From Ignavibacteriota bacterium (GTDB taxonomy: Bacteria; Bacteroidota; Ignavibacteria; UBA10030), in the NCBI GenBank assembly GCA_003155495.1, contig PMDB01000074.1:58177-93658 (forward strand): a stretch of DNA of 35,482 bases, written 5' to 3'. How positions within the stretch are numbered: position 1 is the stretch's first letter; each line of letters starts with the position of its first letter. A program made the position numbers and the translations under genes. The notes beneath the pieces are model-generated. The model did not search any database. It saw only the letters and a program-made list of their open reading frames with translations, and had not been told where the DNA came from. This document shows positions 3,973-29,005 of the stretch, in pieces.

Positions 3973-6582
3973 ATGGCTAAGAATGCAATAGAACAAACTC
4001 GTAACATAAAAGCAACGACGGCAGATCATCCACTTATTCCATTAAAACTTCAGCATCCTGCAGCAATGTTTTTTCTTTATCTCTGCCTGTTGATCTTCTT
4101 TCATTCAATCGTTTTCGACGGGAAAACATATCAATCAGCTGACACGATTGCATCACATAGCTGGGAAACTTTATTAAAAGATGCCAAAGCAGAGGGAATT
4201 TATCCGTTATGGAATCCGTACATTTTTTGCGGGATGCCCGGATATGCAAGTATGACTATTGCTGTTTTGCCAGACTGGAAGCATCAGCCTATAATAAGTA
4301 TCTGGTGGGTAATACGAAAGCACATAGGTAAGATTATTTTCCTTGGACAAGAAGATGGTGCATCGCTGTTTCTATATCTGGTATTTGGAATTGGTGTCTA
4401 CCTTCTTGCTTATAAACTATTCAAGAATAAACCCATTGCACTCTTGGTATCATTAATGGCGACATTTCAAACCGATGTTGCCTTGTATATTATGTTAGGT
4501 CATGGTACAAAAATTGCTGTCCTCGCCTGGTTTCCATATGTATTTTTGCTTGTGGAAAAACTGAGAGAGAGATTTAATCTCATCTTTGCACTCTTGCTTG
4601 CAATTATTGTTCGCTTGATGATTGAACCGGGTCATGTGCAATTTATCTACTATATTTATCTTGCCTTGGGATTCTATTTACTTTTCTTTTTTATCCGTGC
4701 CTTGATAAAAAAAGAAAACTGGAAAGGAATCCTTATCAGTGGAGCATCGCTGGTCATTGCAACAGCCTTCGCTTTATTGATGGGTGCTGACTTACACCTC
4801 TCGACACTTGAATACAATCCTTTTTCCATGCGCGGTTCTAATGCTATTACCAACACTTCGCCGGCATCACAGACGAAAACCGTCGAAGGCGGGCTTGATT
4901 ATGATTATGCGACAAACTGGTCGTTGAGCCCCGGTGAGATGATGACATTTTTCATTCCATCATGGTATGGATTTGGGTGGCATTCCTACCAAGGCCCTTT
5001 AACACAAAATCGGGAAGTAAAGTTAAACACATATTGGGGTCCGCAACCTCAACCCGTTGATAATCCGCACTATATGGGTATTATTGTTATAGTGCTTGCA
5101 ATTATCGGTTTTGTTAAAAATCGAAAAGAGCCATTTGTCCAATATATGGGAATTACAATTCTTATTTCATTATTCGTCGCATTTGGAAAAGAATTTTCCT
5201 TCATATACGATTTATTGTATCGGTACCTGCCGATGTTCAACAAGTTCAGAATTCCACTGATGATTCTTATGCTCGTCCAGTTCTTTACACCATTTCTTGC
5301 CGGATATGGAATTATATCATTCGTGACGGAATTAAAAAAAATAAGTCCATCTCAAGAAAGACAATGGAAATATACTCTTGGATTCCTTGCTCTCTGCTTC
5401 GTGGTAACACTCATAGGAAAAGGTATCCTGAAAGACATATACTCTTCGTTCTTTCCCGTTCAAGAAGTCAGTAAAGTGCTGGCGCAGTACTATGGTCAGG
5501 ATCCAAGAGTTCTTACAATGTTGTATGATTTTGTTTTTTCTTCTGTCATAACAGACATACTAGTGGGTTGTGCTTTCCTCATAGTCGTGTTCGGAGCATT
5601 TTACTATTATCAAAAAAGGAAACTGAAATCTGCAACTCTGTATGGTCTCCTCATCATTGCTGTCCTTTTTGATCTCTGGCGTGTTGCATCAAAACCATCA
5701 GAACCAAGGCCTAAACAGGAAAGTATACAAGTAATGGCAACACCGGATTTCATTAAAGTATTGCAGCAAGATACCACACAGTTTCGTGTTTTAAAATTGG
5801 ATAATGGGCAGCCTGTGTACGGTGATAACTCATATGCGTACTGGAGAATCCAGAATGCTTTTGGATATCAAGGCGCAAAGATGCGGATATTTCAAGATAT
5901 GGCTGATGTCGCTGGAATGGGTAATCCACTCGTCTGGCAGCTTATGAATGTTAAGTATCTTATCAGTAATAGAGATGAATTAAGTCCGGCATTAACTCAA
6001 GTGTACAATAGTCCGGATACAAAGGTCTATGGAGTTCATTTCTGGCTGCCCAGAATATTCTTTGTGAACAGATATGAAGTGAGCGATAATCTTGCGATGC
6101 TCAAGAAAATAGCTGATCGTTCATTTGACCCACGTGACATCGCCTACGTATCGGAAGATATTAAAACCAAAATCGATCCGCCGCTTCAAGGTGCAGAAGC
6201 TGCAGTCGTGCATTATGGAATTCAGGATCTTAAAGTGCAAACGACAGCAACAGGTAACAACCTTTTATTCCTCAGTGAGGCCTATTATCCCAAAGGATGG
6301 AAGGCATTCATAGATGGAAAAGAAGTTGAAATTCTCCGGCTTAATTATCTCTTTCGCGGCGTGATTGTTCCACAAGGGAAGCATACTATAGAAATGAAAT
6401 TTGAACCGGCGAGTTTTTCCACAGGCAGGCAGATAAGTCTTGTATCAAATATTGTGGTGCTTATCGGAATTGTTGTGCCTATCGGAAAAAAAGCATTCGA
6501 TTGGTATAGAAAGCGAACACAAAGACAAAATAGTGTCAAAAATGCGGTGCACACAACCGAACCAAAGAAAACAGAAGTATAA
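3973..6582 (+). CDS. YfhO-family polytopic membrane protein
   Basis: This 869-aa protein has a short hydrophilic N-terminus, a large polytopic region with about a dozen hydrophobic segments, and a soluble extracytoplasmic C-terminal domain. The C-terminal part carries the YfhO-like signature: YYPKGWKAFIDGKE, then FRGVIVPQGKHTIEMKFEP, then a last membrane helix and a basic tail. YfhO proteins are GT-C-related membrane proteins linked to glycosylation of cell-surface polymers; the reaction here is unknown. An acidic loop after the first helix (SADTIASHSWE) and the CGMPGY segment fit the GT-C fold. GAGGGA lies 13 nt upstream of the ATG, and a good promoter starts about 105 nt upstream. Confidence 0.85.
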   Translation: MAKNAIEQTRNIKATTADHPLIPLKLQHPAAMFFLYLCLLIFFHSIVFDGKTYQSADTIASHSWETLLKDAKAEGIYPLWNPYIFCGMPGYASMTIAVLPDWKHQPIISIWWVIRKHIGKIIFLGQEDGASLFLYLVFGIGVYLLAYKLFKNKPIALLVSLMATFQTDVALYIMLGHGTKIAVLAWFPYVFLLVEKLRERFNLIFALLLAIIVRLMIEPGHVQFIYYIYLALGFYLLFFFIRALIKKENWKGILISGASLVIATAFALLMGADLHLSTLEYNPFSMRGSNAITNTSPASQTKTVEGGLDYDYATNWSLSPGEMMTFFIPSWYGFGWHSYQGPLTQNREVKLNTYWGPQPQPVDNPHYMGIIVIVLAIIGFVKNRKEPFVQYMGITILISLFVAFGKEFSFIYDLLYRYLPMFNKFRIPLMILMLVQFFTPFLAGYGIISFVTELKKISPSQERQWKYTLGFLALCFVVTLIGKGILKDIYSSFFPVQEVSKVLAQYYGQDPRVLTMLYDFVFSSVITDILVGCAFLIVVFGAFYYYQKRKLKSATLYGLLIIAVLFDLWRVASKPSEPRPKQESIQVMATPDFIKVLQQDTTQFRVLKLDNGQPVYGDNSYAYWRIQNAFGYQGAKMRIFQDMADVAGMGNPLVWQLMNVKYLISNRDELSPALTQVYNSPDTKVYGVHFWLPRIFFVNRYEVSDNLAMLKKIADRSFDPRDIAYVSEDIKTKIDPPLQGAEAAVVHYGIQDLKVQTTATGNNLLFLSEAYYPKGWKAFIDGKEVEILRLNYLFRGVIVPQGKHTIEMKFEPASFSTGRQISLVSNIVVLIGIVVPIGKKAFDWYRKRTQRQNSVKNAVHTTEPKKTEV

Positions 6583-16737: not shown

Positions 16738-17529
16738 TCAAGGTTCTGGATTCCCGACTACAACATTCGGGAATGACAATATATTTTCGAGAGGCAGCGG
16801 CACATTCTTCTGTCTGAGCTGCGCTATCGGCATTTCATCGAAGGTTCTTCCGGAAAGTTCGCGGCCGGCTGCTTTCTTGCGGACACCGCCCCATTGTTTA
16901 AAGAAGAACGGGACACTCATTTCGCGGCAGCGGCGTTTAATCTGTGTTACCCAATCACGTTCCATAGGACGCGCTCCCGGTCCGGATTCGCCGCCGACAA
17001 TAACCCAATCGATTCCTCTCAGCGGAAGTTTTGGGATAGGACCAAGTAATGGTTCTAATGAAAGAAAACGTATGGCAGCAGGTACTTTGACCAGTTCATG
17101 GATCCGGTCTGTATATTTTTGCGATTCGACACTCACGCCCATCCAGACATTTTCCGGCCACGGGAGATACGGCGCAATTTGTACTAACCGATCCGATCTT
17201 TTTGTGAGAATCTGAAAAGTATGCCAATGTGCCCGCTTCATGGTATCAAAGATTTTTACGATGAAATCGCAGGGAACATCTTTATGCAATAAATCGCTCA
17301 TGGAATTGGTAAAAATGACGCGAGGTTGTTTCCATTCGAGCGGCAATTCGACAATATCTTCCTGGAGCGTCACTTTAAATCCATTCCGGTAGCGAGAAGA
17401 CCCCATCGCCTGAAGTCGCATAGCCATCCGCTCTGCGTAGCAGTTCTTGCAGCCCGGACTGATTTTACTGCAGCCGGTTACTGGGTTCCATGTGGATTCA
17501 GTCCATTCTATAGAGGATTTTTGTGCCAA
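16738..17529 (-). CDS. DUF5131 (phage Gp37/Gp68) three-cysteine protein
   Basis: This 263-aa protein matches the Gp37/Gp68 family. [20 protein letters not shown] leads into a Cys20-x6-Cys27-x2-Cys30 cluster, followed by [54 protein letters not shown] and FFKQWGG, all in family order. The layout recalls a TIM-barrel metal or Fe-S protein related to radical SAM enzymes, but the function is unknown. Family members are common in phages and mobile islands. TTG at 17529 is the start, with GGAG about 11 nt upstream, 54 nt after the HerA-like gene. The last residues are encoded in a dispersed-type palindrome (16747-16778) and may be a foreign tail. Confidence 0.8.
16747..16778. repeat. REP-like palindrome overlapping a gene end
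   Basis: ATTCCCGA (16750-16757) and TCGGGAAT (16767-16774) form a perfect 8-bp inverted repeat, flanked by TGG on one side and GACA on the other. The TGGATTCCCG...CGGGAATGACA layout is that of a class of short dispersed palindromes found in many genomes. Here it lies inside the 3' end of the DUF5131 gene. Confidence 0.5.
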
Positions 17530-17583
17530 TATTTGAAAAGCTCCAATTCAAATAGCAGCATTTATTACAAACAAAAGAAACAT

Positions 17584-19245
17584 TCAGTCCTGTTTGTATG
17601 CAGGCATCGGAAAAATAATCTTTACTGGCTGACGAAAGACAGCGTGTTGCACCAATAACTCTCCTTTCGAGAGTCTCGTGACCGACAACTTCAAATCTTG
17701 ATCGAGAAATCTGTAGTCCGGCTGCATGACCTCGCTTGATGTGCTTCGTCCTAGAATTTTTGTTGCCGAGTTTCCCGTGACTCTTGGATGAACAGCGCTC
17801 AGAAATTGCTGCGCCGACAGGAGAATGACCCCAAGTGAACGACCCCTCTCTGAGATATCAAGAATCTGCTCGATCAATGGGGAGTCTTTTACACCAGCAG
17901 GTGCATACTTGTTTAACTCGTCTACAAAGATGAGAACTTTCTTCGGGAGGTTAAGCGTTTCGTCTGACTCAGCAAACATCTCGTATACTGTTCTGATAAT
18001 GTCTCCAAAAACGAACGCTTGTTCATGATCTTGGAGTTTCGCTATATCCACGACGTAGGTATGACCGCCTTCGATTTTCTGAATCGCATCAGCAAGATGA
18101 TCTTCGTTTCGCCCACGACGATCTGTGAAAATACCGGTCGATCTGGTCTTGACCATCCTGCGAAGATGGCGACGAAATTTCCCAACAGAACTGGCTTTCA
18201 CATCCCCGATAGGTTTCGATTTGCCAGCGTCGGCAAGTGGTTCACCATCAAGTAGACTTAGCCAATCTTGAACTTTTACCCATGGTGACTTTGCTGTTTT
18301 GTTTGCCAACCCGTTCGCAATCTCACCAACTAATGAATCTATTGTTTCCGTTGGATCGGGTATACTTGAAAAGAGGAGATCAAGTTTCTCTGCACAATCA
18401 TTTAATTCGTATGCGTACAGTCGGGATTGTCTCGGTCGGACGAAGCTATTTGCTTCACCATTTTTACCTCGTGGTAAATAATAGTGAACATTTTGAAATG
18501 GCCTCGGCTCAAGACCAAGCTTCAGCCAAAGCGCTTTCTGTCCTTCGTCTAACTTTGCTGGCGGCTCGTCAACTTTCAGGAGGTCGCCGTGCTTGACGTT
18601 CATGATTATGACAGCAACCTCGGTGGGATCAATCTTCTGGAGAATAGATTGAAGCAGAAACATCGCATAGCTTGTCTTGGTTGCTAAACCACTGATGCCC
18701 GAGATGTTCACGTGGGCGGATTCAGGTCCTATAACATAGGATTTGTCGAGATACACGACCGCTTCAACTTCATTGCTCATTTTGATGAGACCTGCCGGGA
18801 TGCGATTCTCTTCCTTCATTGTGTCAATGCCGAGGGCAGCGTGGATGCCGGATTCTTCAGCAAACCTGACATTCTTCTCGTTCTCGATTGGCATATAGAT
18901 GCCGTCTTTGTATGTGCCGTCTGGTTTCTTCCCGCCTCCGTCATTCATCATCACGTTGACTTTTGCCAGTGTTGCACCAACTCTTGGCGTGTTAGGGTCT
19001 TCGGAAACCGAGCCAAAGTTGTTGGAGACGAAATTTGCAAGATGGCTAGCAGCGTCTGTCCGATGCTCGAGGTTCGTGACAAGACCGTATGTCTTGCTGT
19101 CTTTGAAATGTTCGGACTCGACGATGTCGAACGGATTTACAATAACATTGGATGTGATCCAATAGTTGAATTTGTCCGCAGTGTTTGCGTCACGTTCCGT
19201 TGCAGAAGTTCTGCCGATAACCGGATTTTCTTTTTTATCGCTCAT
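17584..19245 (-). CDS. HerA-like ATPase (DNA translocase/helicase family)
   Basis: The protein is 553 aa from ATG 19245, which overlaps the previous stop as ATGA and has AGGAG upstream; an earlier in-frame ATG at 19278 lies inside the previous gene. HVNISGISGLATKTS (178-192) sits where HerA proteins have HxxxxGxTGxGKT; the lysine and threonine remain but the preceding glycine is Thr. Walker B is KVLIFVDELN (about 436-445). A RGRSLGVILLSAQQ segment supplies an arginine-finger-like region and sensor Gln. HerA hexamers pump DNA and work with NurA nuclease; the gene just upstream is NurA-like, supporting both calls. Confidence 0.75.
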   Translation of the reverse strand: MSDKKENPVIGRTSATERDANTADKFNYWITSNVIVNPFDIVESEHFKDSKTYGLVTNLEHRTDAASHLANFVSNNFGSVSEDPNTPRVGATLAKVNVMMNDGGGKKPDGTYKDGIYMPIENEKNVRFAEESGIHAALGIDTMKEENRIPAGLIKMSNEVEAVVYLDKSYVIGPESAHVNISGISGLATKTSYAMFLLQSILQKIDPTEVAVIIMNVKHGDLLKVDEPPAKLDEGQKALWLKLGLEPRPFQNVHYYLPRGKNGEANSFVRPRQSRLYAYELNDCAEKLDLLFSSIPDPTETIDSLVGEIANGLANKTAKSPWVKVQDWLSLLDGEPLADAGKSKPIGDVKASSVGKFRRHLRRMVKTRSTGIFTDRRGRNEDHLADAIQKIEGGHTYVVDIAKLQDHEQAFVFGDIIRTVYEMFAESDETLNLPKKVLIFVDELNKYAPAGVKDSPLIEQILDISERGRSLGVILLSAQQFLSAVHPRVTGNSATKILGRSTSSEVMQPDYRFLDQDLKLSVTRLSKGELLVQHAVFRQPVKIIFPMPAYKQD

Positions 19246-20384
19246 TTGCGCTGACTCCTTAATGCGTTGTTGATGCAACCTTGAATAACATCAGTGGAAT
19301 AGAATCGCTGCTTTGAAGCGTGTTCTGCCTGATAAATTGGATAGAGGTGTGAATGCCACCGGTCATCCGAGCCGTATGGTGTAACGAATCTCTCTGCCAG
19401 CAATGCACCAGAAATCTCGTCTAAGAGTTCCGTCGTGAGTGGCTGCTCAGGAAGAATCGGAATCTCAACTTTAATAACGCCGAAAAGAGGATAGAGGACT
19501 TGTTGAGATTGCCGAAGGCGAAGATACCAGAATGCTGTCTTCCCTCCGTAGCCCTCGTATGCGGTGGTGCGGTGGTATGGTGGAAGCTCGCCTAACAGCG
19601 AGACCACACTTTGCTTTTCTTTTGCCTTACCCCCGTGAGAGTAAAACTTCTGCACACTTGTGAAATTCTTTGCAACGCCGATAACCTTCGTACTTTGCAT
19701 TCCCCCGCCATACTTGCCAAACGAAACAAGTCCATCTTTTATCATCCAGTGATCCGGTAACTTTTCCTTGAACTCCTTCACGATGTCGAACTCCATCGTG
19801 CTCATGAGGTGGCGGGTCTTGCTGCGTCCACGCTCCCGTAAGTCTTGGGCATCGCTGAAGTCGCCGCTAAATGCATCCATCTCCGCTAAATCTCTGATGA
19901 TAATGTTTACCTTGGCTTCCTTCGTTGATTCTTGGATCCGCTCCCACGTAGCGTCAGAAATTCTGCATTTGGCAAGGAGAAGAAACCATTGATGGCGTTT
20001 GAAATCCGGAACAATGCTGAGTTTTCCGTCTTTGTCCCGCTCAAGAATGACAATGGCAATCTGAGCAAGAAAAATAGGTGTTGCTCTATCGTGTTCAAGA
20101 CCCGTAGCAAGGAAGTAGTGACGATACGAGCCATCAAGAAAATATCTGAAGAAATGATTCGTGCTTCTCTCAATAGGTTCAACGGGGCGATACTTCCATG
20201 TTGGCTTAGGAATTTCAAGCGAGTTTTCAATCAGAAGATTATCGCCCGAAAGTTTCGTGTCGTCTCGTTCTTCTTCGCCAACGAAGGTCATCTCTTCAAC
20301 GGCGCCCTCGCTTGCTGGCAGGAGTTCGAGTTGGTTCGAAACAACAGACATTATCTTCTGGAGCGTAGCAGTTAACTCTCTCAT
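19242..20384 (-). CDS. NurA-like nuclease
   Basis: The protein is 380 aa from ATG 20384, which has a near-perfect GGAGGAG 6 nt upstream and overlaps the previous stop as ATGA. RYFLDGSYR (Asp84) matches the DGS motif near the N-terminus of NurA nucleases. A central WMIKDGLVSFGK could be the second acidic site. The C-terminal HSHLYPIYQAEHASKQRFYS resembles the conserved His-containing HlYPi.lAe end of the family. NurA is a Mn-dependent 5'-3' exo/endonuclease acting with HerA in DNA end resection. The call rests on motif layout plus the adjacent HerA-like gene; overall similarity is distant. Confidence 0.6.
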   Translation of the reverse strand: MRELTATLQKIMSVVSNQLELLPASEGAVEEMTFVGEEERDDTKLSGDNLLIENSLEIPKPTWKYRPVEPIERSTNHFFRYFLDGSYRHYFLATGLEHDRATPIFLAQIAIVILERDKDGKLSIVPDFKRHQWFLLLAKCRISDATWERIQESTKEAKVNIIIRDLAEMDAFSGDFSDAQDLRERGRSKTRHLMSTMEFDIVKEFKEKLPDHWMIKDGLVSFGKYGGGMQSTKVIGVAKNFTSVQKFYSHGGKAKEKQSVVSLLGELPPYHRTTAYEGYGGKTAFWYLRLRQSQQVLYPLFGVIKVEIPILPEQPLTTELLDEISGALLAERFVTPYGSDDRWHSHLYPIYQAEHASKQRFYSTDVIQGCINNALRSQRK

Positions 20385-23300
20385 TGCATCTCCTCCAAAC
20401 TCTCTTTGATATCCTTGAGTTCTTCTTTGCTCAGCTCCCAAAGTTCTGCAACAAGTTCGTCAAGCTGTTCTTCGAGATCACTTACACTGATGCCATCAGC
20501 GACTTTATTGTGGCACAGTTTAGAGAGATGGGCTAGCTCTTTATGTCTGCCATTGTTTTGATCATATTTGGGAATTTTTATTCTCTCAAGAACAAACCCT
20601 GTCAATCTAATTGCTGATGTCGTTTTAGTTATGAATGATGACGGGCTAGAATTAAGCATTGAACATACAAAGTGGGCTTCTTCTTCATCATCAAAAGGTA
20701 TAAAAGTAATGTTATCGTGCGGTATTACAGGTTTTTTTTCATCGCCGACAAGGCCTTGAGACACAACTGCACAGATTAATCGACCATCTGAAATGCCTTT
20801 CCAAATGACTTTAAATGGTGAGAAAGTATAGGGGCCGACGTTATATTGTGACCAAAAAGTTGAAGTCTCTTGGTACTTTTTATAAGCGGGTCGAGATCTG
20901 AGAGGTGTCTCAAATTCTTTAAAGTAATCAAGGGTTTTGGGACAGTTAATTTCCATCCATTTAGCTTCATAACCTTTTCTTGTCCTTGGATCCTGTGGGA
21001 TGATTTGCCAAAACTGTGTCATTGACCTCCATCTATTCATATCTCTTCCTCGAAGCAAGGGAAATATAAGACGTGTTTCAATTTCTGCTGTGACAGGTTT
21101 GAATTCTTTCTTGCTTGCTTCGGGAAGATTTTCAATCTTCGCCCCTGTCTTAGTTATTTCCTGAATGTTTATCCAGTAGACAGCGTTAGCACCACCTGTA
21201 TTTGCTCCTTCATATCCACGGTAAATAGACTTACCGACGATTTTCTGAATAGCCATCAAGGCTTTTGGTCCTGCCGAAATCCACGGGGAAGTATCGCTAT
21301 CACCAACGGGTTGAGCTTTAAAGTTTAATCGCACCGTAGCTGCACTCGCTTCCTCAAATGTATAGTCCATTGCGATCTTACCTTTTTCTTTCTTCCGCCA
21401 AAGCGTATATGGCAATGGATACTTCGTCTTCTCACCTTTCAAAGTAAGAATCAATGCTGTGCGATTTGCCGCACCTTCAAAGGGTTGGAGTTCGACCATA
21501 TCGTCGAGTTGCTCCACTTTGAAGAATGTTCCAGTCTGTCCTAGTCGAAATCTTCTGAATCCATCTCCCGCACCCTCCGTTTTGAAAAGGGTTTGAGTAA
21601 TAACAAAACATAATTTTGACCTATCTTTCAAATACTTATCAATAGCAACATACATCATCAGCATCGAAATGTCTTTCTTCCCACCGCCCATTCTTGCTTC
21701 CTGTCCACTAAGCGAAAATAAACCGTAGTTCTGCCAAAGCACTTTTGTTTGGTCACGATAACTCTGTGGTAAATCTTCCCAATTCACCCACGGTGGATTG
21801 CCAACGATGAAATCGAACTGTCCGACAAACAGAGGAGCAAAGGCGTTCTTGATAATCCTCGCCCAAATACCGTTGATGCCTTTCTGCTCTAGCTCAACAA
21901 GCTTCTCGTATGTCTCGCCAAGGACAAGGTCGAACTTCTTCATGTCCTTTGGTTCAGTTTTTAGCTCTGTGTGCACACGGTCGAGGAACAGCTTGGTCGT
22001 CTGCTTCTTCTTCACGCTCTCTTCCAGCATCACGGTTACTTTTTGAATCAATGCTTTTTGCACAAGCGCTTCAGGGAAACGGAAGAGTCCCACGCTGGTG
22101 GAAATCTGATAGTGTCCGGCTTCCTTATCGAATAGATCATCCTGATGCTTTGCGCTCGGCGGGTTGATGCTGTCGCAGAGATAAATGGGGATAGTGATTT
22201 CACCCTTCTTGTACTTCAACAAGTCCGCAATAGCTAACAAATAGTTAGTTCGTGCTGAGATAACAGCAAGCGGGTTAAGATCGAAACCAACGATGTTCTT
22301 TGTGATCAAATCCAGTGTTTCAGCGGGATCAATACCGTATAGGCGTGCGTGCTCCTTTGCTCGCTTGATCGCCAGGATGTCGAATGTGCCAGAGCCGCAT
22401 CCCGGATCGAGCAGCCTTTTCTTGAGAAGGTCTTTTTCCTTCACACCATATCCAACCTGATTGAGCGTGCGTTCGGCAAGCCAGTCTGGTGTGTAATATT
22501 CTCCGAGATCGTGTCGAATCTGTTTCGGTACGAGGAACTGGTAGAGCTTCTTGAGAATGTCACGGGTCTCGTCGGGCACCAATTCCATTGTTTCAGGGTC
22601 GTACTGGTTGAGCCGTTCAATGATGCCACGGATTGCTTTCTCGATTGGGTCATTCCAGTCGTTCAAATACCATGAGAGCAAATCCCCTTCAAGGAAGTTT
22701 CGGATACCGAGCGAACGGAAAATTCCACCTTCCTCAAGTTCTGCCAGCTTTTCCTTCAGGACAGCGGAGTCTAGTTTTTCCCATTCAGCAAGTACTAGCC
22801 CTGAGATGTTTTTGAGAGTATAGAATCCGACAACCTGATAAGCGAGTAGCTTCATCAACAAGCCGTAATAGGTGTCGAGCGCAAAGAAGAAGGCAAGGAA
22901 ATCGAAATCCTTCTGCTCATCCTTCTTGAAGCCGTACGATTTGAAAAGAGTTTCTGCATCGAACTTTTTATTCTCGATGGCGCCATGAACCTCGGCAAAC
23001 TGGAGCGCCCACTGCTCGAAGAAGACTTTGACCTTCGCATCTACGTTCTTGGTGAGGGCAAAGTAGAATGCCTTGATTGTGTTGGAAGCAATGTAATTGA
23101 GTGAGCCTGCACCGACAGCGAAATCACGGATGAGATTGTCGGGAACGAGGGCAGCTTTGGTAGTAAGCTTCTCAAGTGTAAGAAGGAACCGCTCGACACT
23201 CTCAACAGAGACCGGAATGGGCTCCTCTTCAATCCAGCGTCCGACCTTTCGGACGAACAGGAAGTAATGGCCATCGAAAACAACTCCGAGAAGGCGCTCT

Positions 23301-23626
23301 TCCTTCCAACGCTCTTCTTTGGCAAGGTCTTCGATGTAGTGCTTTACCTGATCAATGAGCTTGCGATTCTTTTCGTTGTTCCCTCTGATGGCACCGGGTT
23401 TCTTGTATTCCAAAATCAACTGATTAAAGACAGTGTCCGCTCTACCGTTGGCTAATTGTCGTTCATCTCTTGATTGGAAGTTGAGATTAATTCGGTTTGA
23501 CCGGAGGTACTCATCCCAGAGAGGTGCAACATGCTCACGCAGTTTGGCTTCTGGATTTCCTGATGTTTTTGAAGCGTTTGTAGCTGCCTTGGCAATCTCT
23601 GAAACAATACTGTCGTAGTTGCTCAT
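20381..23626 (-). CDS. Type IIG-like restriction enzyme: PD-(D/E)XK plus N6-adenine methyltransferase
   Basis: A 1081-aa multidomain protein. The N-terminus has a PD-(D/E)XK-like motif: Asp64 in GRADTVFNQ, then LEYKKPG with Glu73 and Lys75. A helical linker follows to about residue 380. The methyltransferase has LLDPGCGSGTFD (SAM motif I, from about 405), VGFDLNPLAV, and catalytic NPPW at 610-613. The last 300-400 residues have the low-similarity look of a target-recognition domain, ending in a coiled-coil-like acidic tail. The domain order matches single-chain IIG/IIL enzymes such as MmeI. ATG 23626 overlaps the preceding stop (ATGA) and has GGAGGGG upstream. The NurA and HerA partners are unusual for this class. 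Confidence 0.85.
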   Translation of the reverse strand: MSNYDSIVSEIAKAATNASKTSGNPEAKLREHVAPLWDEYLRSNRINLNFQSRDERQLANGRADTVFNQLILEYKKPGAIRGNNEKNRKLIDQVKHYIEDLAKEERWKEERLLGVVFDGHYFLFVRKVGRWIEEEPIPVSVESVERFLLTLEKLTTKAALVPDNLIRDFAVGAGSLNYIASNTIKAFYFALTKNVDAKVKVFFEQWALQFAEVHGAIENKKFDAETLFKSYGFKKDEQKDFDFLAFFFALDTYYGLLMKLLAYQVVGFYTLKNISGLVLAEWEKLDSAVLKEKLAELEEGGIFRSLGIRNFLEGDLLSWYLNDWNDPIEKAIRGIIERLNQYDPETMELVPDETRDILKKLYQFLVPKQIRHDLGEYYTPDWLAERTLNQVGYGVKEKDLLKKRLLDPGCGSGTFDILAIKRAKEHARLYGIDPAETLDLITKNIVGFDLNPLAVISARTNYLLAIADLLKYKKGEITIPIYLCDSINPPSAKHQDDLFDKEAGHYQISTSVGLFRFPEALVQKALIQKVTVMLEESVKKKQTTKLFLDRVHTELKTEPKDMKKFDLVLGETYEKLVELEQKGINGIWARIIKNAFAPLFVGQFDFIVGNPPWVNWEDLPQSYRDQTKVLWQNYGLFSLSGQEARMGGGKKDISMLMMYVAIDKYLKDRSKLCFVITQTLFKTEGAGDGFRRFRLGQTGTFFKVEQLDDMVELQPFEGAANRTALILTLKGEKTKYPLPYTLWRKKEKGKIAMDYTFEEASAATVRLNFKAQPVGDSDTSPWISAGPKALMAIQKIVGKSIYRGYEGANTGGANAVYWINIQEITKTGAKIENLPEASKKEFKPVTAEIETRLIFPLLRGRDMNRWRSMTQFWQIIPQDPRTRKGYEAKWMEINCPKTLDYFKEFETPLRSRPAYKKYQETSTFWSQYNVGPYTFSPFKVIWKGISDGRLICAVVSQGLVGDEKKPVIPHDNITFIPFDDEEEAHFVCSMLNSSPSSFITKTTSAIRLTGFVLERIKIPKYDQNNGRHKELAHLSKLCHNKVADGISVSDLEEQLDELVAELWELSKEELKDIKESLEEMQ

Positions 23627-23997
23627 TGCGCCCCTCCACCAATTGCTTCCCTTATCGCCCTCACCTTCTTTTTCACATCATTCTCCCGCTTAATACGTAC
23701 AAGCGTCACAGTGTCTACTTGTTTTGCATCAATGGAATCAAGCAGAGAGGCGAGAACAGAACCAAGGCGTTGGTATTCTTCCGGCGTGAGTTTGTCCGGT
23801 ATTGGAGTTTCGAAGTAGGTCTTTGTCGTAGCGACGATGCAGCCCTCCGGCGTTACACCGACTTTGAGGTCGTCTTTGGTGAAGCCGCACTCGTAGTGAG
23901 AGATCACATTTGCTGCGACAGCCTCAGCAACGCGCTGGATGAATTCTGCATTTGAAAGTAAGCGACCGTGCTGGTCGTAACGGTGAGATTGAGGCAT
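23623..23997 (-). CDS. Unrecognised 124-aa protein, first gene of the methylase-NurA-HerA operon
   Basis: I do not recognise this family. It begins MPQSHRYDQHGRLLSNAEFI, then an alpha-helical stretch, a short beta-rich centre (KVGVTPEGCIVATTKTYFET) and a C-terminal helix rich in Arg/Lys (RIKRENDVKKKVRAIREAI) that could bind nucleic acid. There is no signal peptide or membrane segment. The stop overlaps the methylase start by 4 nt, so it is almost certainly part of the same translation unit and could be a small subunit or regulator (inference). The GGAG of its ribosome binding site lies 3 nt before the ATG and inside a hairpin. Confidence 0.75.
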   Translation of the reverse strand: MPQSHRYDQHGRLLSNAEFIQRVAEAVAANVISHYECGFTKDDLKVGVTPEGCIVATTKTYFETPIPDKLTPEEYQRLGSVLASLLDSIDAKQVDTVTLVRIKRENDVKKKVRAIREAIGGGAQ

Positions 23998-24400: not shown

Positions 24401-25051
24401 TCACACACTCTTAATCACTTTGATCACTCGCCACATGAAGGTCACGTCCTTTTTGCGCACGACCATCGGCTCATATTCAGGATTGAGCGGAATCAAGTGT
24501 ACAAATTGTTCGTCAATTTTTATTCGCTTCACGGTGTCTTCCTCATCCACGCGCACCACGCAGATATCACCGCTTCTCACTTCTAATTTTGGCGTTACCA
24601 CAATGATGTCGCCGTTCTCAATGCGGGGCGCCATGCTGTTTCCCTTAACTTCGAGTGCGAACGCATTCGGGTCGCGCACATCGTCTACTGTGATGTATCG
24701 GTCAGCTTGATCGGAATGAAACCGCTGACTCAATGCGCCGGCCGGCACCGATGCAAGCAAGGGAAGTGAAACGAGTTCTACTTTTTTATAACGGCTTGTC
24801 GGCAATGGTATGATCTTGGATTTGACCTGTTCAGCGGGGGCCATCTCTCCGTCTCCGCTCAGCAGCCAGTGAGCCGTTATGCCGGTTGCCTTGGCAATGC
24901 GCATGAGATAATTACTGTCAGGCACCTGATCGCCTTTTTCCCAGCGTTGAACGGTGCGTGTTGCAATATCAATCTTCGCGGCAAGGTCAGCTTGATCAAG
25001 TTGTTTTGACAACCGCGCTTCGCGAATGCGTTGTGCAATTGTAGATTTCAT
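24401..25051 (-). CDS. LexA/CI-like repressor (XRE helix-turn-helix plus S24 peptidase)
   Basis: The protein is 216 aa from ATG 25051. An N-terminal HTH_3 domain (IAQRIREARLSKQLDQADLA, then TRTVQRWEKGDQVP) is joined to a C-terminal S24 domain. The self-cleavage site appears as PAGA (Ala104-Gly105). The Ser-Lys dyad is Ser139 in GNSMAPRIENGD and Lys175 in DTVKRI. Such repressors cleave themselves when stimulated by RecA filaments after DNA damage. GTG codons at 25087 and 25084 would extend the protein into a palindromic repeat and are less likely. It probably binds the ACGACA-N4-TGTC(G/A)T sites at 25532 and 25641 and so controls the divergent polymerase operon. Confidence 0.85.
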   Translation of the reverse strand: MKSTIAQRIREARLSKQLDQADLAAKIDIATRTVQRWEKGDQVPDSNYLMRIAKATGITAHWLLSGDGEMAPAEQVKSKIIPLPTSRYKKVELVSLPLLASVPAGALSQRFHSDQADRYITVDDVRDPNAFALEVKGNSMAPRIENGDIIVVTPKLEVRSGDICVVRVDEEDTVKRIKIDEQFVHLIPLNPEYEPMVVRKKDVTFMWRVIKVIKSV

Positions 25052-25095
25052 AGAATTATTCGCTTTCTTCGGAATTTTTTTCACCACCCCTTTAT

Positions 25096-25116
25096 CCCCT
25101 CCTCATAGAGGAGGGG
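25096..25116. repeat. Perfect GC-rich hairpin repeat
   Basis: CCCCTCCTC and GAGGAGGGG pair perfectly around a 3-nt loop, with further CCACCCC and GGGGAGGAG blocks on either side. Repeats of this kind occur in many copies in some Bacteroidota-related genomes (recalled, not checked). It separates the DUF559 gene from the repressor gene. Confidence 0.5.
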
Positions 25117-25165
25117 ACATGGGGAGGAGTACTTTTCTCGTTGCATCTTGTTGTCCATTCGTAAA

Positions 25166-25498
25166 TCATTTGAAGAACACCATATTGTTGGAAACATCAT
25201 CGTTGGTAAAGCGCATAAAATGAATACCGAAAGATTCAATATACTTCTGCCGTTCGTTGTCATATTTTTCGGAGAGATAGCCATAGTGACTATCTCCATC
25301 AATTTCGATAGCGAGCTTAAGTTCTGGACAATAGAAATCAATGACATACTGATTCACACTATATTGCCGGCGAAATTTGAATCCATTCATTTGCTTTCGT
25401 GAAAGATGCAACCATATAACCGCTTCCGCCTTCGAAAGTGATCGACGTAATGCTTTACGTCGTGCTGTATACGCTTTGTTATTAAAGACAATCGACAT
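25166..25498 (-). CDS. DUF559 endonuclease-like protein (Vsr/PD-(D/E)XK fold)
   Basis: This 110-aa protein matches the DUF559 pattern: ARRKALRRSLSKAEAVIWLH, GFKFRRQYSV, then YVIDFYCPELKLAIEIDGDS with Asp54, Glu65 and Asp67, and His71. The fold is that of very-short-patch-repair and restriction endonucleases; biological roles of DUF559 proteins are mostly unknown. Family members usually run about 10 residues further, so the C-terminus looks slightly cut (ends NNMVFFK). A promoter and an operator-like repeat lie just upstream. It sits between the divergent promoter and the repressor and is followed by a GC-rich palindrome, so it may be an insertion. Confidence 0.8.
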   Translation of the reverse strand: MSIVFNNKAYTARRKALRRSLSKAEAVIWLHLSRKQMNGFKFRRQYSVNQYVIDFYCPELKLAIEIDGDSHYGYLSEKYDNERQKYIESFGIHFMRFTNDDVSNNMVFFK

Positions 25499-25531
25499 AG
25501 TGTCTTTCCATTCACAGCGGCTTAGGCCTAT

Positions 25532-25547
25532 ACGACATAAATGTCAT
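25532..25547. promoter_or_regulatory. Operator-like inverted repeat 1
   Basis: ACGACA-TAAA-TGTCAT, matching site 2 in ten of the twelve-position half-site pairs or better with only the last half-site differing by one base. It lies just downstream of the minus-strand -10 candidate and 34 nt before the DUF559 start, where a repressor would block transcription of DUF559 and the repressor gene (autoregulation). Confidence 0.6.
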
Positions 25548-25552
25548 AACCA

Positions 25553-25581
25553 AAATAATGCTTTTTATCCCATATTGTCAA
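25553..25581 (-). promoter_or_regulatory. Promoter for DUF559-repressor transcript
   Basis: On the minus strand TTGACA (25581-25576) is followed after 17 nt by TTATTT (25558-25553), or after 18 nt by TATTTT. The -35 is a perfect consensus; the -10 is moderate. Operator-like site 1 would overlap the start of transcription. Confidence 0.5.
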
Positions 25582-25632
25582 TAGCTTTATAATAAAGCAG
25601 AAAACGACGGCGGATCGCGCCAAAATCACTTC

Positions 25633-25661
25633 TTGACAAGACGACAAAAATGTCGTATTCT
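25633..25661 (+). promoter_or_regulatory. Promoter of the RecA-like/PolB operon
   Basis: TTGACA (25633-25638) and TATTCT (25656-25661) are separated by 17 nt, and the gene starts at 25673. Operator-like site 2 fills the spacer and touches the -10, as expected for a repressible SOS-type promoter. The leader is therefore only a few bases long, and no clear Shine-Dalgarno is present. Confidence 0.65.
25641..25656. promoter_or_regulatory. Operator-like inverted repeat 2
   Basis: A perfect inverted repeat, ACGACA-AAAA-TGTCGT, located between the -35 and -10 elements of the plus-strand promoter. Together with site 1 it defines the motif ACGACA-N4-TGTC(G/A)T. The S24 repressor encoded next door is the obvious candidate ligand (inference). 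Confidence 0.65.
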
Positions 25662-25672
25662 TTTTTAGAGTC

Positions 25673-26464
25673 ATGAGCAAAACGAGACCCATATCTCCCG
25701 CCCAACATCACCGCCGGTATCCTGCTCCGCCGCCAACCATGGATATACACGATAATGCAGTGCCTATTCGTTCTGAGCGGATGATTCATGCCTTTGCAGA
25801 CATGCCCGGCAAAGTATTTCTGCTGTACGGCGAGCGGGCTATTTTTCAACTGTCGCTTCAGATGGCCGCGCACGCAATGCTTCATGGAAATCCTATTGCC
25901 GTTGTAGACGGCTGCAACCGTTTCGATGTGCACGCGCTTTCACGATTTGCCCGCACGCGGAAGATCGACCCAAATAAATTTCTCAATCATATTTTCATCT
26001 CGCGCGGCTTCACGTGTTATCAGATGGAGCAGGCCATTGCGCACAAACTGCCGGCGTTTCTTGCAACCATCCATTCGAACACTGCATTGGTCTTTGGACT
26101 GCTCGATACCTTCTACGACGAACAGGCATCTCTGCGTGAGGTGCGGCAGATACTTCAGAGACTGCTCGGTTCGTTTCAGGAAATGAAATCGAAAGGAGTC
26201 TCGCTCTTACTGGTGTGTTTAGAAAGAACCGTCGCACCGAAGGAACGCAATCAGTTGTTTACCACACTTAAAAACGGTGTAGATCGCGTGTATAAACTCG
26301 ATACCAATGAACACGGATCACTTCAGCTCTATTTAGAATCTCAACAACCCGTGGACGAAAAAATAAAAGGAGTATTGAATTATGGGACGAACCGTACCAA
26401 CCTTCACCAACCTGATCGATGCGGAACTGGCAAGCTGGTCAAAGTTCCGCCGCGGACTGCGTAA
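25673..26464 (+). CDS. RecA-fold protein without a Walker A lysine (ImuA-like role proposed)
   Basis: A 263-aa protein with a RecA/RadB-like core. KVFLLYGERAIFQLSLQMAA (47-66) aligns with the P-loop strand and helix, but GERAIFQL replaces GxxxxGKT, so ATP binding is doubtful. AVVDGCNRFDVHALSRFAR then HIFISRGFTCYQMEQAI resembles the NxFD and isRaFTxyQ segments of Rad51/RadB-type proteins. KGVSLLLVCLERT is the Walker B-like strand, without an acidic end. It may bind RecA or the polymerase as ImuA does in DnaE2 mutasomes (inference). The first gene of an operon with a 16-bp operator-like repeat in its promoter; its end overlaps the next gene by 83 nt. Confidence 0.65.
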   Translation: MSKTRPISPAQHHRRYPAPPPTMDIHDNAVPIRSERMIHAFADMPGKVFLLYGERAIFQLSLQMAAHAMLHGNPIAVVDGCNRFDVHALSRFARTRKIDPNKFLNHIFISRGFTCYQMEQAIAHKLPAFLATIHSNTALVFGLLDTFYDEQASLREVRQILQRLLGSFQEMKSKGVSLLLVCLERTVAPKERNQLFTTLKNGVDRVYKLDTNEHGSLQLYLESQQPVDEKIKGVLNYGTNRTNLHQPDRCGTGKLVKVPPRTA

Positions 26465-26636
26465 AGACGATCAGGAAGTCTTCGACGAAATATTCCGCGC
26501 CGCAAAATTGCACCTGGCGGAAAACTTTTATGCGATGCGTGCAATTCCATTTGAAAGCATGATGATGTCGATCGTCGTGGAACAGCAGAAAGCTATACAG
26601 AAACTGGAAAAAGAAGTTGAGAAATTAAGACGTTGA
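26382..26636 (+). CDS. Unrecognised 84-aa protein with C-terminal coiled coil
   Basis: The frame starts with ATG 26382, preceded by AAAAGGAGT at a suitable distance, a much better ribosome binding site than its neighbours have. It overlaps the upstream gene by 83 nt in another frame. The protein is all-helical in appearance: RRGLRKDDQEVFDEIFRAAK in the centre and VVEQQKAIQKLEKEVEKLRR, a heptad-like coiled coil, at the end. I do not recognise the family. Sitting between the RecA-like protein and the polymerase, it could be an adaptor subunit (inference). Confidence 0.7.
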   Translation: MGRTVPTFTNLIDAELASWSKFRRGLRKDDQEVFDEIFRAAKLHLAENFYAMRAIPFESMMMSIVVEQQKAIQKLEKEVEKLRR

Positions 26637-26671
26637 GATAGGAAGGATTGTTAATCTGTGAGCCATTGAAC

Positions 26672-29005
26672 ATGAAAAAAACGAATCTTTCATCTGAAAT
26701 CTCTCATCTCTCATCTCCTATCTCTGCTTGGTTATTCGATGTCTATCCATCTGAACGCGGCGTCACACTCTGGTTTATCGACAGGAACGGTGCACGGCTG
26801 CGCTGTTTCCGAAAATTTACGCCGTCGTTCTTTCTTCATCTGAACGATTCCGACGTTAAACGTGCAGCGGTTCTTGCTCACCAGTGCCCTGTTCCGATTT
26901 CACTTTCGCCTGCGACGCGCACAGAAATATATTCCGGTGATTCCATTGACGTGCTGCAAGTCTTTGTTCATGATCCGATGCGGTTCAAGGAAATTGTATG
27001 GTACTTCGAGAAATTTTTTCCGCATTTTGCGTTTTTCAATTCTGATGTTTCCGTAGAGCAGCAATTTCTGTATGAAACGCAGTTGTTTCCGCTGGCACTT
27101 GGCGAGTATGAGGTCAGTAAGGAAGGTGAACTTCTCTCCTGGCATCTCAATGATAACCGTGAAGCGCCGGAATATGAGTTGCCGCCGTTTTCCATTATGC
27201 AGCTTCGCAACAGCAATGATTTTGTGCCGTCGAAGTACCAGAAATTTCTGCAACTAGAAATCAGTTATGACAACCGGACGTATGCCTTAGAACAGGATTC
27301 GCCGCGCGAATTGCTCGAGGCGTTCAACTGGCATCTGCATCATTGCGATCCCGACTTGCTCGTCACCGATTACGGCGACGCGGTTCTTCTTCCGAAGATG
27401 ATGCAGCTTTCCAAACAGTTCAACATTCCTTTGCTTCTCAATCGAGACACCGAGGCACAGCACCGCACGACGAAGGAATCCAGTTTCTTTCAGTACGGAA
27501 AGATTGTCCACAAAGACGGCGCATTCACGCTCGCTGGCCGCTGGCATGTGGATGCGCATAATTCTTTCACCGTGAGCGAAGCAGATCTTGACGGTCTCTT
27601 CGAGATGACGCGTCTGACACAAATGTGCGGACAACGACAGGGACGCGCGAGTATCGGTACATCGATGTCATCCATGCAGCTTTCGTGGGCTTACCGCAAC
27701 AACGTGCTTATTCCGTCGAAGAAGCGCGAACCGGAGGAATTCAAATCGGCTGCAACTCTTCTGCTTGCCGACCGCGGCGGACTTATCTTTAATCCCCCGC
27801 TTGGCTACCACGAAGATGTTGCCGAACTCGATTTCGTCTCGATGTACCCAAGCATTATGGTGAACAACAATGTTTCACCGGAAACAATCAACTGTCGATG
27901 CTGTCGCAACGAAGCAGTGCCGGAACTTGGATACACGATCTGCGAGAAACGTAAAGGTGTGGTTCCGGAAACACTTCGTGCTGTTGTGGCAAAACGTGCG
28001 CACTACAAGCGGAAGAAAAAAGAATTCAAGGGAAAAGATGAAGTGCTCTTTAAGCGGTACGATTGCCGGCAAAGCGCTCTCAAGTGGATGCTGGTAAGCT
28101 GCTTCGGCTATCTTGGTTACAAGAACGCGCGTTTCGGACGCATCGAAGCACACGAATCAGTCAATGCCTTTTCGCGGGACGCCCTTCTCACTGCAAAAGA
28201 AATTGCCGAGAGCCGCGGCTACAAGCTTCTCCACGCCATCGTCGATTGTGTGTGGCTGAAAAAGTCAGGCGCGACACAGAACGATTACGAAGAACTTGCG
28301 CGTGAAATTTCCACACGTGTCGGTATCGATATTTCGCTGGAAGGCATGTACAACTGGATTCTTTTTCCCGCTTCCAAAACAGATCCGCAGATTACTACCG
28401 CAAATCATTATGTGGGATGGTACCGGCATGGCGAAATCAAAATGCGCGGTATCGAGGCGCGGCGGCGCGATACGCCGAAGTTTATCAAGAACATGCAGAA
28501 AGCAATGCTGGATAAAATGTCCGCCGCAAAGAATGTCGAGGAAGTATCAGCACTCGTGCCGGAGGTGTTGGAGATCGCACGTGGCTTCATGGTGCTCCTC
28601 CAAAGTGGACGTGCAAATCCGATGGAGCTTGTTCTCAAACGCCACATCACGCGCGAGGCCGATGAATATCTCAATAACAGCATCAGCGCGGTTGTCTCCA
28701 AAATGGTAGAAGAAATGGGAGTGCACCTCTCAGCAGGCGAGTCGATCGAGTTCATTATTCTCGATCAATCCGGCAAGAAAAAGCCTGAAAAAGCTAAGCC
28801 TATTGCGTTGTATGCATTCGAAGATGGCTACGATATTGAGCAGTATACTGAGCTTGCCTTGCGGGCAGTGGAAACGCTTCTCCTTCCCTTCGGCTACGAT
28901 GGAGAACGGTTGAAAGAACATTTTAGAATTGGCATGCCAAAACAAAAGCGTCTGCAGGTACCCCAAAAAAATCAGGAACTCCCGTTATTCCAAATCCAGA
29001 TCTAA
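26672..29005 (+). CDS. Family B DNA polymerase with degenerate exonuclease domain
   Basis: A 777-aa family B polymerase. Motif A is ELDFVSMYPSIM with catalytic Asp387. Motif B is RQSALKWMLVSCFGYLGY. Motif C is HAIVDCVWLKK, where the usual DTDS reads IVDC; the second, essential Asp (525) is kept. In the exonuclease domain the expected DxE of ExoI reads QLE (194-196), so proofreading is probably lost. ATG 26672 is preferred; TTG 26648 lies too close to GGAAGG. The N-terminal codons include six heptamer repeats. With a LexA-like repressor and a RecA-like partner upstream, a translesion or mutagenic polymerase is likely (inference). Confidence 0.85.
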   Translation: MKKTNLSSEISHLSSPISAWLFDVYPSERGVTLWFIDRNGARLRCFRKFTPSFFLHLNDSDVKRAAVLAHQCPVPISLSPATRTEIYSGDSIDVLQVFVHDPMRFKEIVWYFEKFFPHFAFFNSDVSVEQQFLYETQLFPLALGEYEVSKEGELLSWHLNDNREAPEYELPPFSIMQLRNSNDFVPSKYQKFLQLEISYDNRTYALEQDSPRELLEAFNWHLHHCDPDLLVTDYGDAVLLPKMMQLSKQFNIPLLLNRDTEAQHRTTKESSFFQYGKIVHKDGAFTLAGRWHVDAHNSFTVSEADLDGLFEMTRLTQMCGQRQGRASIGTSMSSMQLSWAYRNNVLIPSKKREPEEFKSAATLLLADRGGLIFNPPLGYHEDVAELDFVSMYPSIMVNNNVSPETINCRCCRNEAVPELGYTICEKRKGVVPETLRAVVAKRAHYKRKKKEFKGKDEVLFKRYDCRQSALKWMLVSCFGYLGYKNARFGRIEAHESVNAFSRDALLTAKEIAESRGYKLLHAIVDCVWLKKSGATQNDYEELAREISTRVGIDISLEGMYNWILFPASKTDPQITTANHYVGWYRHGEIKMRGIEARRRDTPKFIKNMQKAMLDKMSAAKNVEEVSALVPEVLEIARGFMVLLQSGRANPMELVLKRHITREADEYLNNSISAVVSKMVEEMGVHLSAGESIEFIILDQSGKKKPEKAKPIALYAFEDGYDIEQYTELALRAVETLLLPFGYDGERLKEHFRIGMPKQKRLQVPQKNQELPLFQIQI
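26685..26726 (+). repeat. Six tandem heptanucleotide units at the 5' end of the polymerase gene
   Basis: Six consecutive 7-nt units all begin ATCT: ATCTTTC, ATCTGAA, ATCTCTC, ATCTCTC, ATCTCCT, ATCTCTG. They lie 13 nt into the gene and encode two copies of a seven-residue unit (xLSSxIS). Seven is not a multiple of three, so gain or loss of one unit would shift the frame. Confidence 0.55.

Follow-up and report, generated by a model that had tools for sequence, protein, structure and literature searches.

What kind of regulator controls a B-family DNA polymerase operon that lies close to a predicted self-cleaving repressor gene, and to which known system does the operon belong? The question is raised by a locus within a 35,482-nucleotide stretch of an Ignavibacteriota bacterium (assembly GCA_003155495.1, contig PMDB01000074.1, positions 58,177 to 93,658; hereafter the window, numbered from its first letter). 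A sequence-only reading had proposed an SOS-like divergon here, with a LexA-type repressor facing a RecA-fold protein, an 84-amino-acid protein and a B-family polymerase, in analogy to the LexA-ImuA-ImuB-DnaE2 cassette. Open reading frames for all four genes were confirmed. We consider the locus to be a DNA-damage-inducible translesion operon under a CI-type S24 repressor, a reading to which we assign a probability of about 0.82. The part of it that can be read directly from the DNA consists of an operator in the promoter, autoregulatory sites, conserved catalytic residues and a conserved gene set. The earlier proposal was broadly correct in naming an SOS mutasome with a B-family polymerase, since a conserved set of genes with a shared operator encodes a PolB2 mutasome, but its comparisons with LexA and ImuB were wrong.

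The operon encodes a PolB2 mutasome

Three adjacent genes on the forward strand encode iRadA (25,673-26,464, or from an alternative ATG at 25,739), PPB2 (partner of PolB2, 84 amino acids, 26,382-26,636) and PolB2 (to 29,005, starting at ATG 26,672 or TTG 26,648). Their order, iRadA-PPB2-PolB2, matches the sole gene order reported for bacterial PolB2 mutasomes (PMC11791011); the prediction of these complexes dates from 2014, and a model followed in 2025 (PMC4104785, PMC11791011). The archaeal PolB2 mutasome is a B-family translesion complex that is induced by damage and required for targeted mutagenesis (PMC11791011). We conclude that the operon is the bacterial PolB2 mutasome, an already known machine for damage-tolerant DNA copying that originated in archaea.

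The product of the RecA-fold gene gave no significant Pfam match. However, its family profile matched archaeal RadA at 2.5e-5, and its structure model, with a mean predicted local distance difference test (pLDDT) score of 80 and a core at about 90 or more, matched RadA/Rad51 chains in Foldseek at 1e-8 to 1e-9 with template modelling scores of 0.5-0.7. The Walker A motif GxxxxGK[ST] was not found in the iRadA alignment. Because it combines RadA profile matches and a RadA/Rad51 fold with the lack of Walker A, we assign the protein as iRadA, an inactive RadA/Rad51 paralogue predicted to be catalytically dead, and not as the counterpart of ImuA. Its C-terminal tail and PPB2 overlap in different frames. 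Since this overlap ranges from none to 107 nucleotides, and the tail is unconserved and modelled as disordered, we treat the overlap as incidental; a programmed iRadA-PPB2 fusion was ruled out on the same grounds.

PPB2 is a small helical protein whose N-terminal MGRT is invariant in 14 aligned sequences, and MGRT is the signature of PPB2 (arCOG07300; PMC11791011). The 84-amino-acid protein, put forward as an adaptor in place of ImuB, is thus no substitute for ImuB but an already published protein; in the published model it forms a trimer that links PolB2 to iRadA (PMC11791011). Neither ImuB nor DnaE2 is found in the operon.

PolB2 matches Pfam DNA_pol_B (E 2e-35), and its highest scores are to B polymerases of archaeal type. 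All nine aligned rows have I-V/I-D at motif C, where the best match of solved structure has SDTD; this loss of the first Asp of the catalytic DxD is the mark of PolB2. At the proofreading exonuclease site, LND stands opposite DIE of the solved polymerase, in a part of the alignment that scores only 10.5 bits. The C-terminus, QELPLF, is a beta-clamp motif with similar sequences in several relatives, and by eye no clamp motif was seen in iRadA, which fits the published either-or pattern. A structure model of PolB2 (pLDDT 59, predicted template modelling score 0.40) was discarded for low confidence. A second PolB2-like gene fragment (G000:C112, L065 6968-7418), 65% identical over about 75 amino acids and followed by an interrupted stretch, is probably a decayed copy.

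A polymerase beside a CI-type repressor could also belong to a prophage or plasmid module, in which the repressor silences a lytic operon with a phage replicative polymerase. The best PHROG match of the repressor is indeed a phage transcriptional repressor, iRadA and PPB2 also have PHROG matches, and PolB2 and PPB2 genes occur in Leptospira LE1 phages. In the one we inspected, the LE1-type phage Bejolso9 (L328 4207-7259), iRadA-like, PPB2 and PolB2 genes are consecutive, with the iRadA-like gene upstream. However, homologues occur in only 4 of 50,697 phage records, and the inspected one carries the same trio, and we rejected the reading of the polymerase as a phage replicase; PolB2 has moreover lost a catalytic Asp. 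Nor did the frames read in the window include phage structural genes; arginine-biosynthesis-like genes flank the mutasome locus there, and the operon is conserved across families of the order while the repressor gene is usually unlinked from it. A mobile-element origin of this kind is therefore very improbable.

The repressor has a CI/Cro-type DNA-binding domain

The repressor gene (24,401-25,051, reverse strand) encodes 216 amino acids, with a helix-turn-helix domain (HTH_3, E 5e-12) and an S24 domain (E 2e-26) that is predicted to be self-cleaving. Because LexA_DNA_bind (PF01726) is absent and the TIGR00498 score of 65 bits is below the cut-off of 111, we excluded a LexA identity, contrary to the first assignment; judged by its family matches, the DNA-binding domain is of the CI/Cro type. 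No other S24 protein was found in this genome, which is 97% complete, and outside the order the best match of the repressor within the sampled phylum reached only about 62 bits. The Ser-Lys dyad and Ala-Gly site described previously are present as S139, K175 and Ala104-Gly105, and all 15 repressor sequences compared have S139, K175 and Gly105.

A predicted operator fills the spacer of the mutasome promoter

The operator-like repeats noted earlier also proved genuine in the sense of exceeding chance. A perfect palindrome, ACGACA-AAAA-TGTCGT (predicted operator O1, 25,641-25,656), occupies the 17-base-pair spacer of a sigma70-like promoter on the forward strand ahead of the mutasome, read from the sequence as TTGACA (25,633-25,638) and TATTCT (25,656-25,661). 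A copy with one mismatch, ACGACATAAATGTCAT (predicted operator O2, 25,532-25,547), lies upstream of the repressor and an intervening DUF559 gene and is a possible autoregulatory site. The window contains six sites with up to two mismatches to ACGACA-N4-TGTCGT, compared with 1.3 +/- 1.0 expected, and none of 100 shuffles reached six.

The palindrome recurs upstream of iRadA in relatives, and unlinked repressor genes are preceded by it as well: exactly in G251, G055 and G014, with one mismatch in G228, and with two mismatches in G004, G097, G337 and G240. We searched 98 genomes of the order for TTGACA-N3-CGACA-N4-TGTCGTA with at most one mismatch, using the reversed pattern as a control. The promoter-embedded operator was found in 55 genomes and the control in none. 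Of the 98 genomes, 59 encode a CI-type repressor in full length, scored at 200 bits or more; the operator is present in 51 of these compared with 4 of the 39 genomes without the repressor (Fisher p 2e-14, kinship ignored). When the promoter was aligned in the 55 homologous sites, positions outside the search pattern were also conserved: a single base of the 4-base-pair spacers departs from A/T, and about 50 sites have TATnnT as the -10 box. This alignment, with its conserved spacer and -10 box, indicates that the operator fills the 17-base-pair promoter spacer.

In a scan of named genomes most matches were from Ignavibacteria, and 52 of 80 sites adjoin mutasome, repressor and/or DUF72 genes. 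Clostridial genomes (L191, L206, L213, L224, L237) have a near-identical 25-mer, for example TTGACAAAGCGACAC..GTGTCGTATAAT, directly before TetR-type genes. Because several of the sites inspected precede such genes and are without the A/T spacer, we rejected them as members of the regulon and set them aside as a look-alike, probably a separate TetR autoregulatory operator.

The predicted regulon is small

The operator precedes iRadA-PPB2-PolB2, in some cases headed by a dinB-like gene, or separates the repressor gene from a divergent DUF72 gene. Three leftover Ignavibacteria sites of the named-genome scan lead into a dinB-like gene, with iRadA and PPB2 beyond it in one case (L204), and SRAP follows DUF72 at operator sites of G240 and G228. 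The gene set is conserved across families of the order, behind a shared operator. From these positions, the regulon would comprise the mutasome (sometimes with the dinB-like gene), DUF72 (joined by SRAP in two or more genomes) and the repressor itself.

Several individual sites were also observed. In G228, one operator directly precedes PolB2, and neither iRadA nor PPB2 was detected in the vicinity (L052 7983-10214), and a second lies ahead of DUF72-SRAP on a separate contig (L120 1899). The only other combined promoter-operator site in the genome of the window (G000:C55:5409, L066) precedes a 310-amino-acid gene (4462-5391) without a Pfam match, adjoining a gene that resembles peptide-chain release factor 3; the 310-amino-acid gene is a possible third regulon member. 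Another Ignavibacteria operator (L257 123-147) lies ahead of a gene resembling, by eye, the three-Cys-motif partner protein TcmP.

LexA and the CI-type repressor within one order

We searched for the LexA DNA-binding family in 17 PolB2-bearing genomes, 11 from families f1, f2, f4 and f5 and six from f3 and f9. Nine of the 11 had no match, and the two exceptions, a match in an 851-amino-acid frame of G228 and a match below the cut-off in G337, are not at the S24 gene. In contrast, all six f3/f9 genomes have canonical LexA, and none of 22 f3 genomes has the promoter-embedded operator. In G093, a LexA-bearing f3 genome, CTGT-N8-ACAG boxes precede both lexA and the mutasome. Because this box was not seen in the other LexA-bearing genomes tested, we claim no general LexA box. 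Within an Ignavibacteria clade, the CI-type repressor thus appears to have the role played by LexA in another family of the order.

One f3 genome, G120, falls within the f1 clade of the PolB2 tree, with support of 95/95 for the seven-row group, yet no CI operator was seen upstream. This combination fits transfer followed by a change of regulator, a history that one tree can only make suggestive.

These results bear on whether the window might hold a canonical LexA SOS operon after all, either of the LexA-ImuA-ImuB-DnaE2 type or as part of an ordinary LexA regulon. An S24 domain with intact catalytic residues beside a RecA-fold gene and a polymerase would be expected of such an operon, and lexA has been reported beside bacterial polB2 (PMC4104785, PMC11791011). 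However, HTH_3 stands in the place of LexA_DNA_bind, for which the whole genome gave no match, and TIGR00498 remains below its cut-off. In addition, a genome-wide polymerase search, confined to the Y family and not aimed at ImuB or DnaE2 themselves, gave a single match (a 402-amino-acid frame, elsewhere), and the operator is ACGACA-N4-TGTCGT, not the CTGT-N8-ACAG box of G093. Control by LexA is accordingly hard to credit.

Neighbouring genes

Between the repressor and both operators lies a DUF559 gene (110 amino acids, 25,166-25,498, reverse strand; PF04480, E 1e-29), which had gone unmentioned in the sequence-only reading and is outside the conserved system. A congener has a different DUF559 gene (L049 6541-6831, 34% identical) on the opposite side of the operator, and both genes are close to hairpin-forming repeats, as if a small mobile cassette had been inserted twice independently. 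Upstream of the repressor, 16,741-23,997 contains a type IIG restriction-modification gene (PADLOC REase_MTase_IIG), a HerA-like ATPase gene, another gene and a DUF5131 gene, a defence-like cluster.

Discussion

Strong comparative evidence supports a mechanism in which a dimer of the CI-type S24 repressor would bind ACGACA-N4-TGTCGT between the -35 and -10 boxes. Because the operator fills this spacer, RNA polymerase would be blocked at the mutasome promoter, and the repressor would also bind upstream of its own gene. Since the Ser-Lys dyad and the Ala-Gly bond are intact, we infer that filaments of the ordinary RecA of the genome on single-stranded DNA trigger autocleavage and derepression. 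By homology, and from archaeal PolB2 experiments by others, iRadA, PPB2 and PolB2 would then be made and assemble as the mutasome, with the MGRT arm of PPB2 placed between PolB2 and iRadA. PolB2 would dock on the beta clamp via QELPLF and extend primers past lesions at a mutagenic cost.

Several observations weigh against this scheme. In the window, DUF559 is interposed between the repressor and both operators. Because the genomes are related, the Fisher test overstates their independence; eight repressor-bearing genomes lack the operator at the stringency used, and four have it without the repressor, three of them only 61-91% complete. Residue 104, the Ala of the cleavage bond, is Ala in 10 and Gly in 5 of the 15 relatives. 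Finally, recA and a stand-alone dinB have no site with up to two mismatches in the 400 nucleotides upstream, several of these starts being uncertain or in the wrong frame; without a clear operator at these genes, the regulon would be narrower than canonical SOS. The last two points are also what would be expected if the S24 repressor answered a signal other than RecA filaments, as has been reported for IrvR of S. mutans (PMC7101444), so that the operon would be controlled by stress but not by damage. However, the linked genes (PolB2 mutasome, dinB-like gene, SRAP, DUF72) are related to damage, and mitomycin C induces CI-type S24 SOS repressor systems in Bacteroidetes (PMC8565304). We regard a non-RecA signal as unlikely, and favour damage-inducible control by the CI-type repressor.

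How does this compare with known systems? With the published PolB2 mutasome (PMC4104785, PMC11791011) the locus shares gene order, the MGRT arm, a dead iRadA, the missing first Asp, a beta-clamp motif in one component, a nearby S24 regulator and the association with SRAP and DUF72. It differs in that the regulator is of CI type, whereas lexA was noted adjoining the bacterial mutasome (PMC4104785), and in that SRAP and DUF72 are at separate loci, tied by the shared operator. The non-canonical CI-type LexA of Bacteroidetes (PMC8565304) likewise combines a CI-type helix-turn-helix with an autocleavable S24 domain (here predicted) bearing Ser-Lys and Ala-Gly, a single fixed-spacer palindrome, autoregulation (here predicted) and polymerase targets. 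However, its operators are GGA-N5-TCC or CTAA-N5-TTAG, and it governs a canonical SOS network with recA and uvr, in contrast to the compact regulon without recA found here, where uvr genes were not examined. HdiR of Streptococcaceae and UmuDAb of Moraxellaceae (PMC8565304) are also non-LexA S24 repressors with minimal regulons of error-prone polymerases, but differ in lineage, operator and polymerase family (Y rather than B). The LexA-ImuA-ImuB-DnaE2 cassette has an S24 repressor, a RecA-fold accessory and a damage-tolerance polymerase, yet the three mutasome components here come from other families.

The word Ignavibacter does not occur in PMC8565304, and a full-text literature search, with subscription literature outside its scope, returned nothing on LexA and the SOS response in Ignavibacteria. 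Thus, the mutasome and, with other motifs, CI-type SOS repressors in Bacteroidetes were already known; the lineage, the ACGACA-N4-TGTCGT operator and its link to PolB2, as read from sequence comparison, appear to be new, none being described in the cited literature.

More broadly, it seems reasonably probable that in a large Ignavibacteria clade a phage-type S24 repressor took over control of the damage response from LexA and has its own operator and a compact regulon of mutasome, DUF72 and SRAP, in a recruitment separate from those published. If so, the contrast lies within one order, as f3 keeps LexA and the PolB2 of G120 groups with the CI clade in the absence of a CI operator. Three lines would be joined: bacterial PolB2 mutasomes, whose regulation has until now been guessed only from lexA neighbours; CI-type SOS repressors, so far known from Bacteroidetes and Streptococcaceae in the cited literature; and DUF72/SRAP, tied to the mutasome via the shared operator. 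With so precise an operator and promoter, the predicted regulation is testable, and LexA and a CI-type repressor over the same operon in one order would provide a natural case for the swapping of SOS master regulators.

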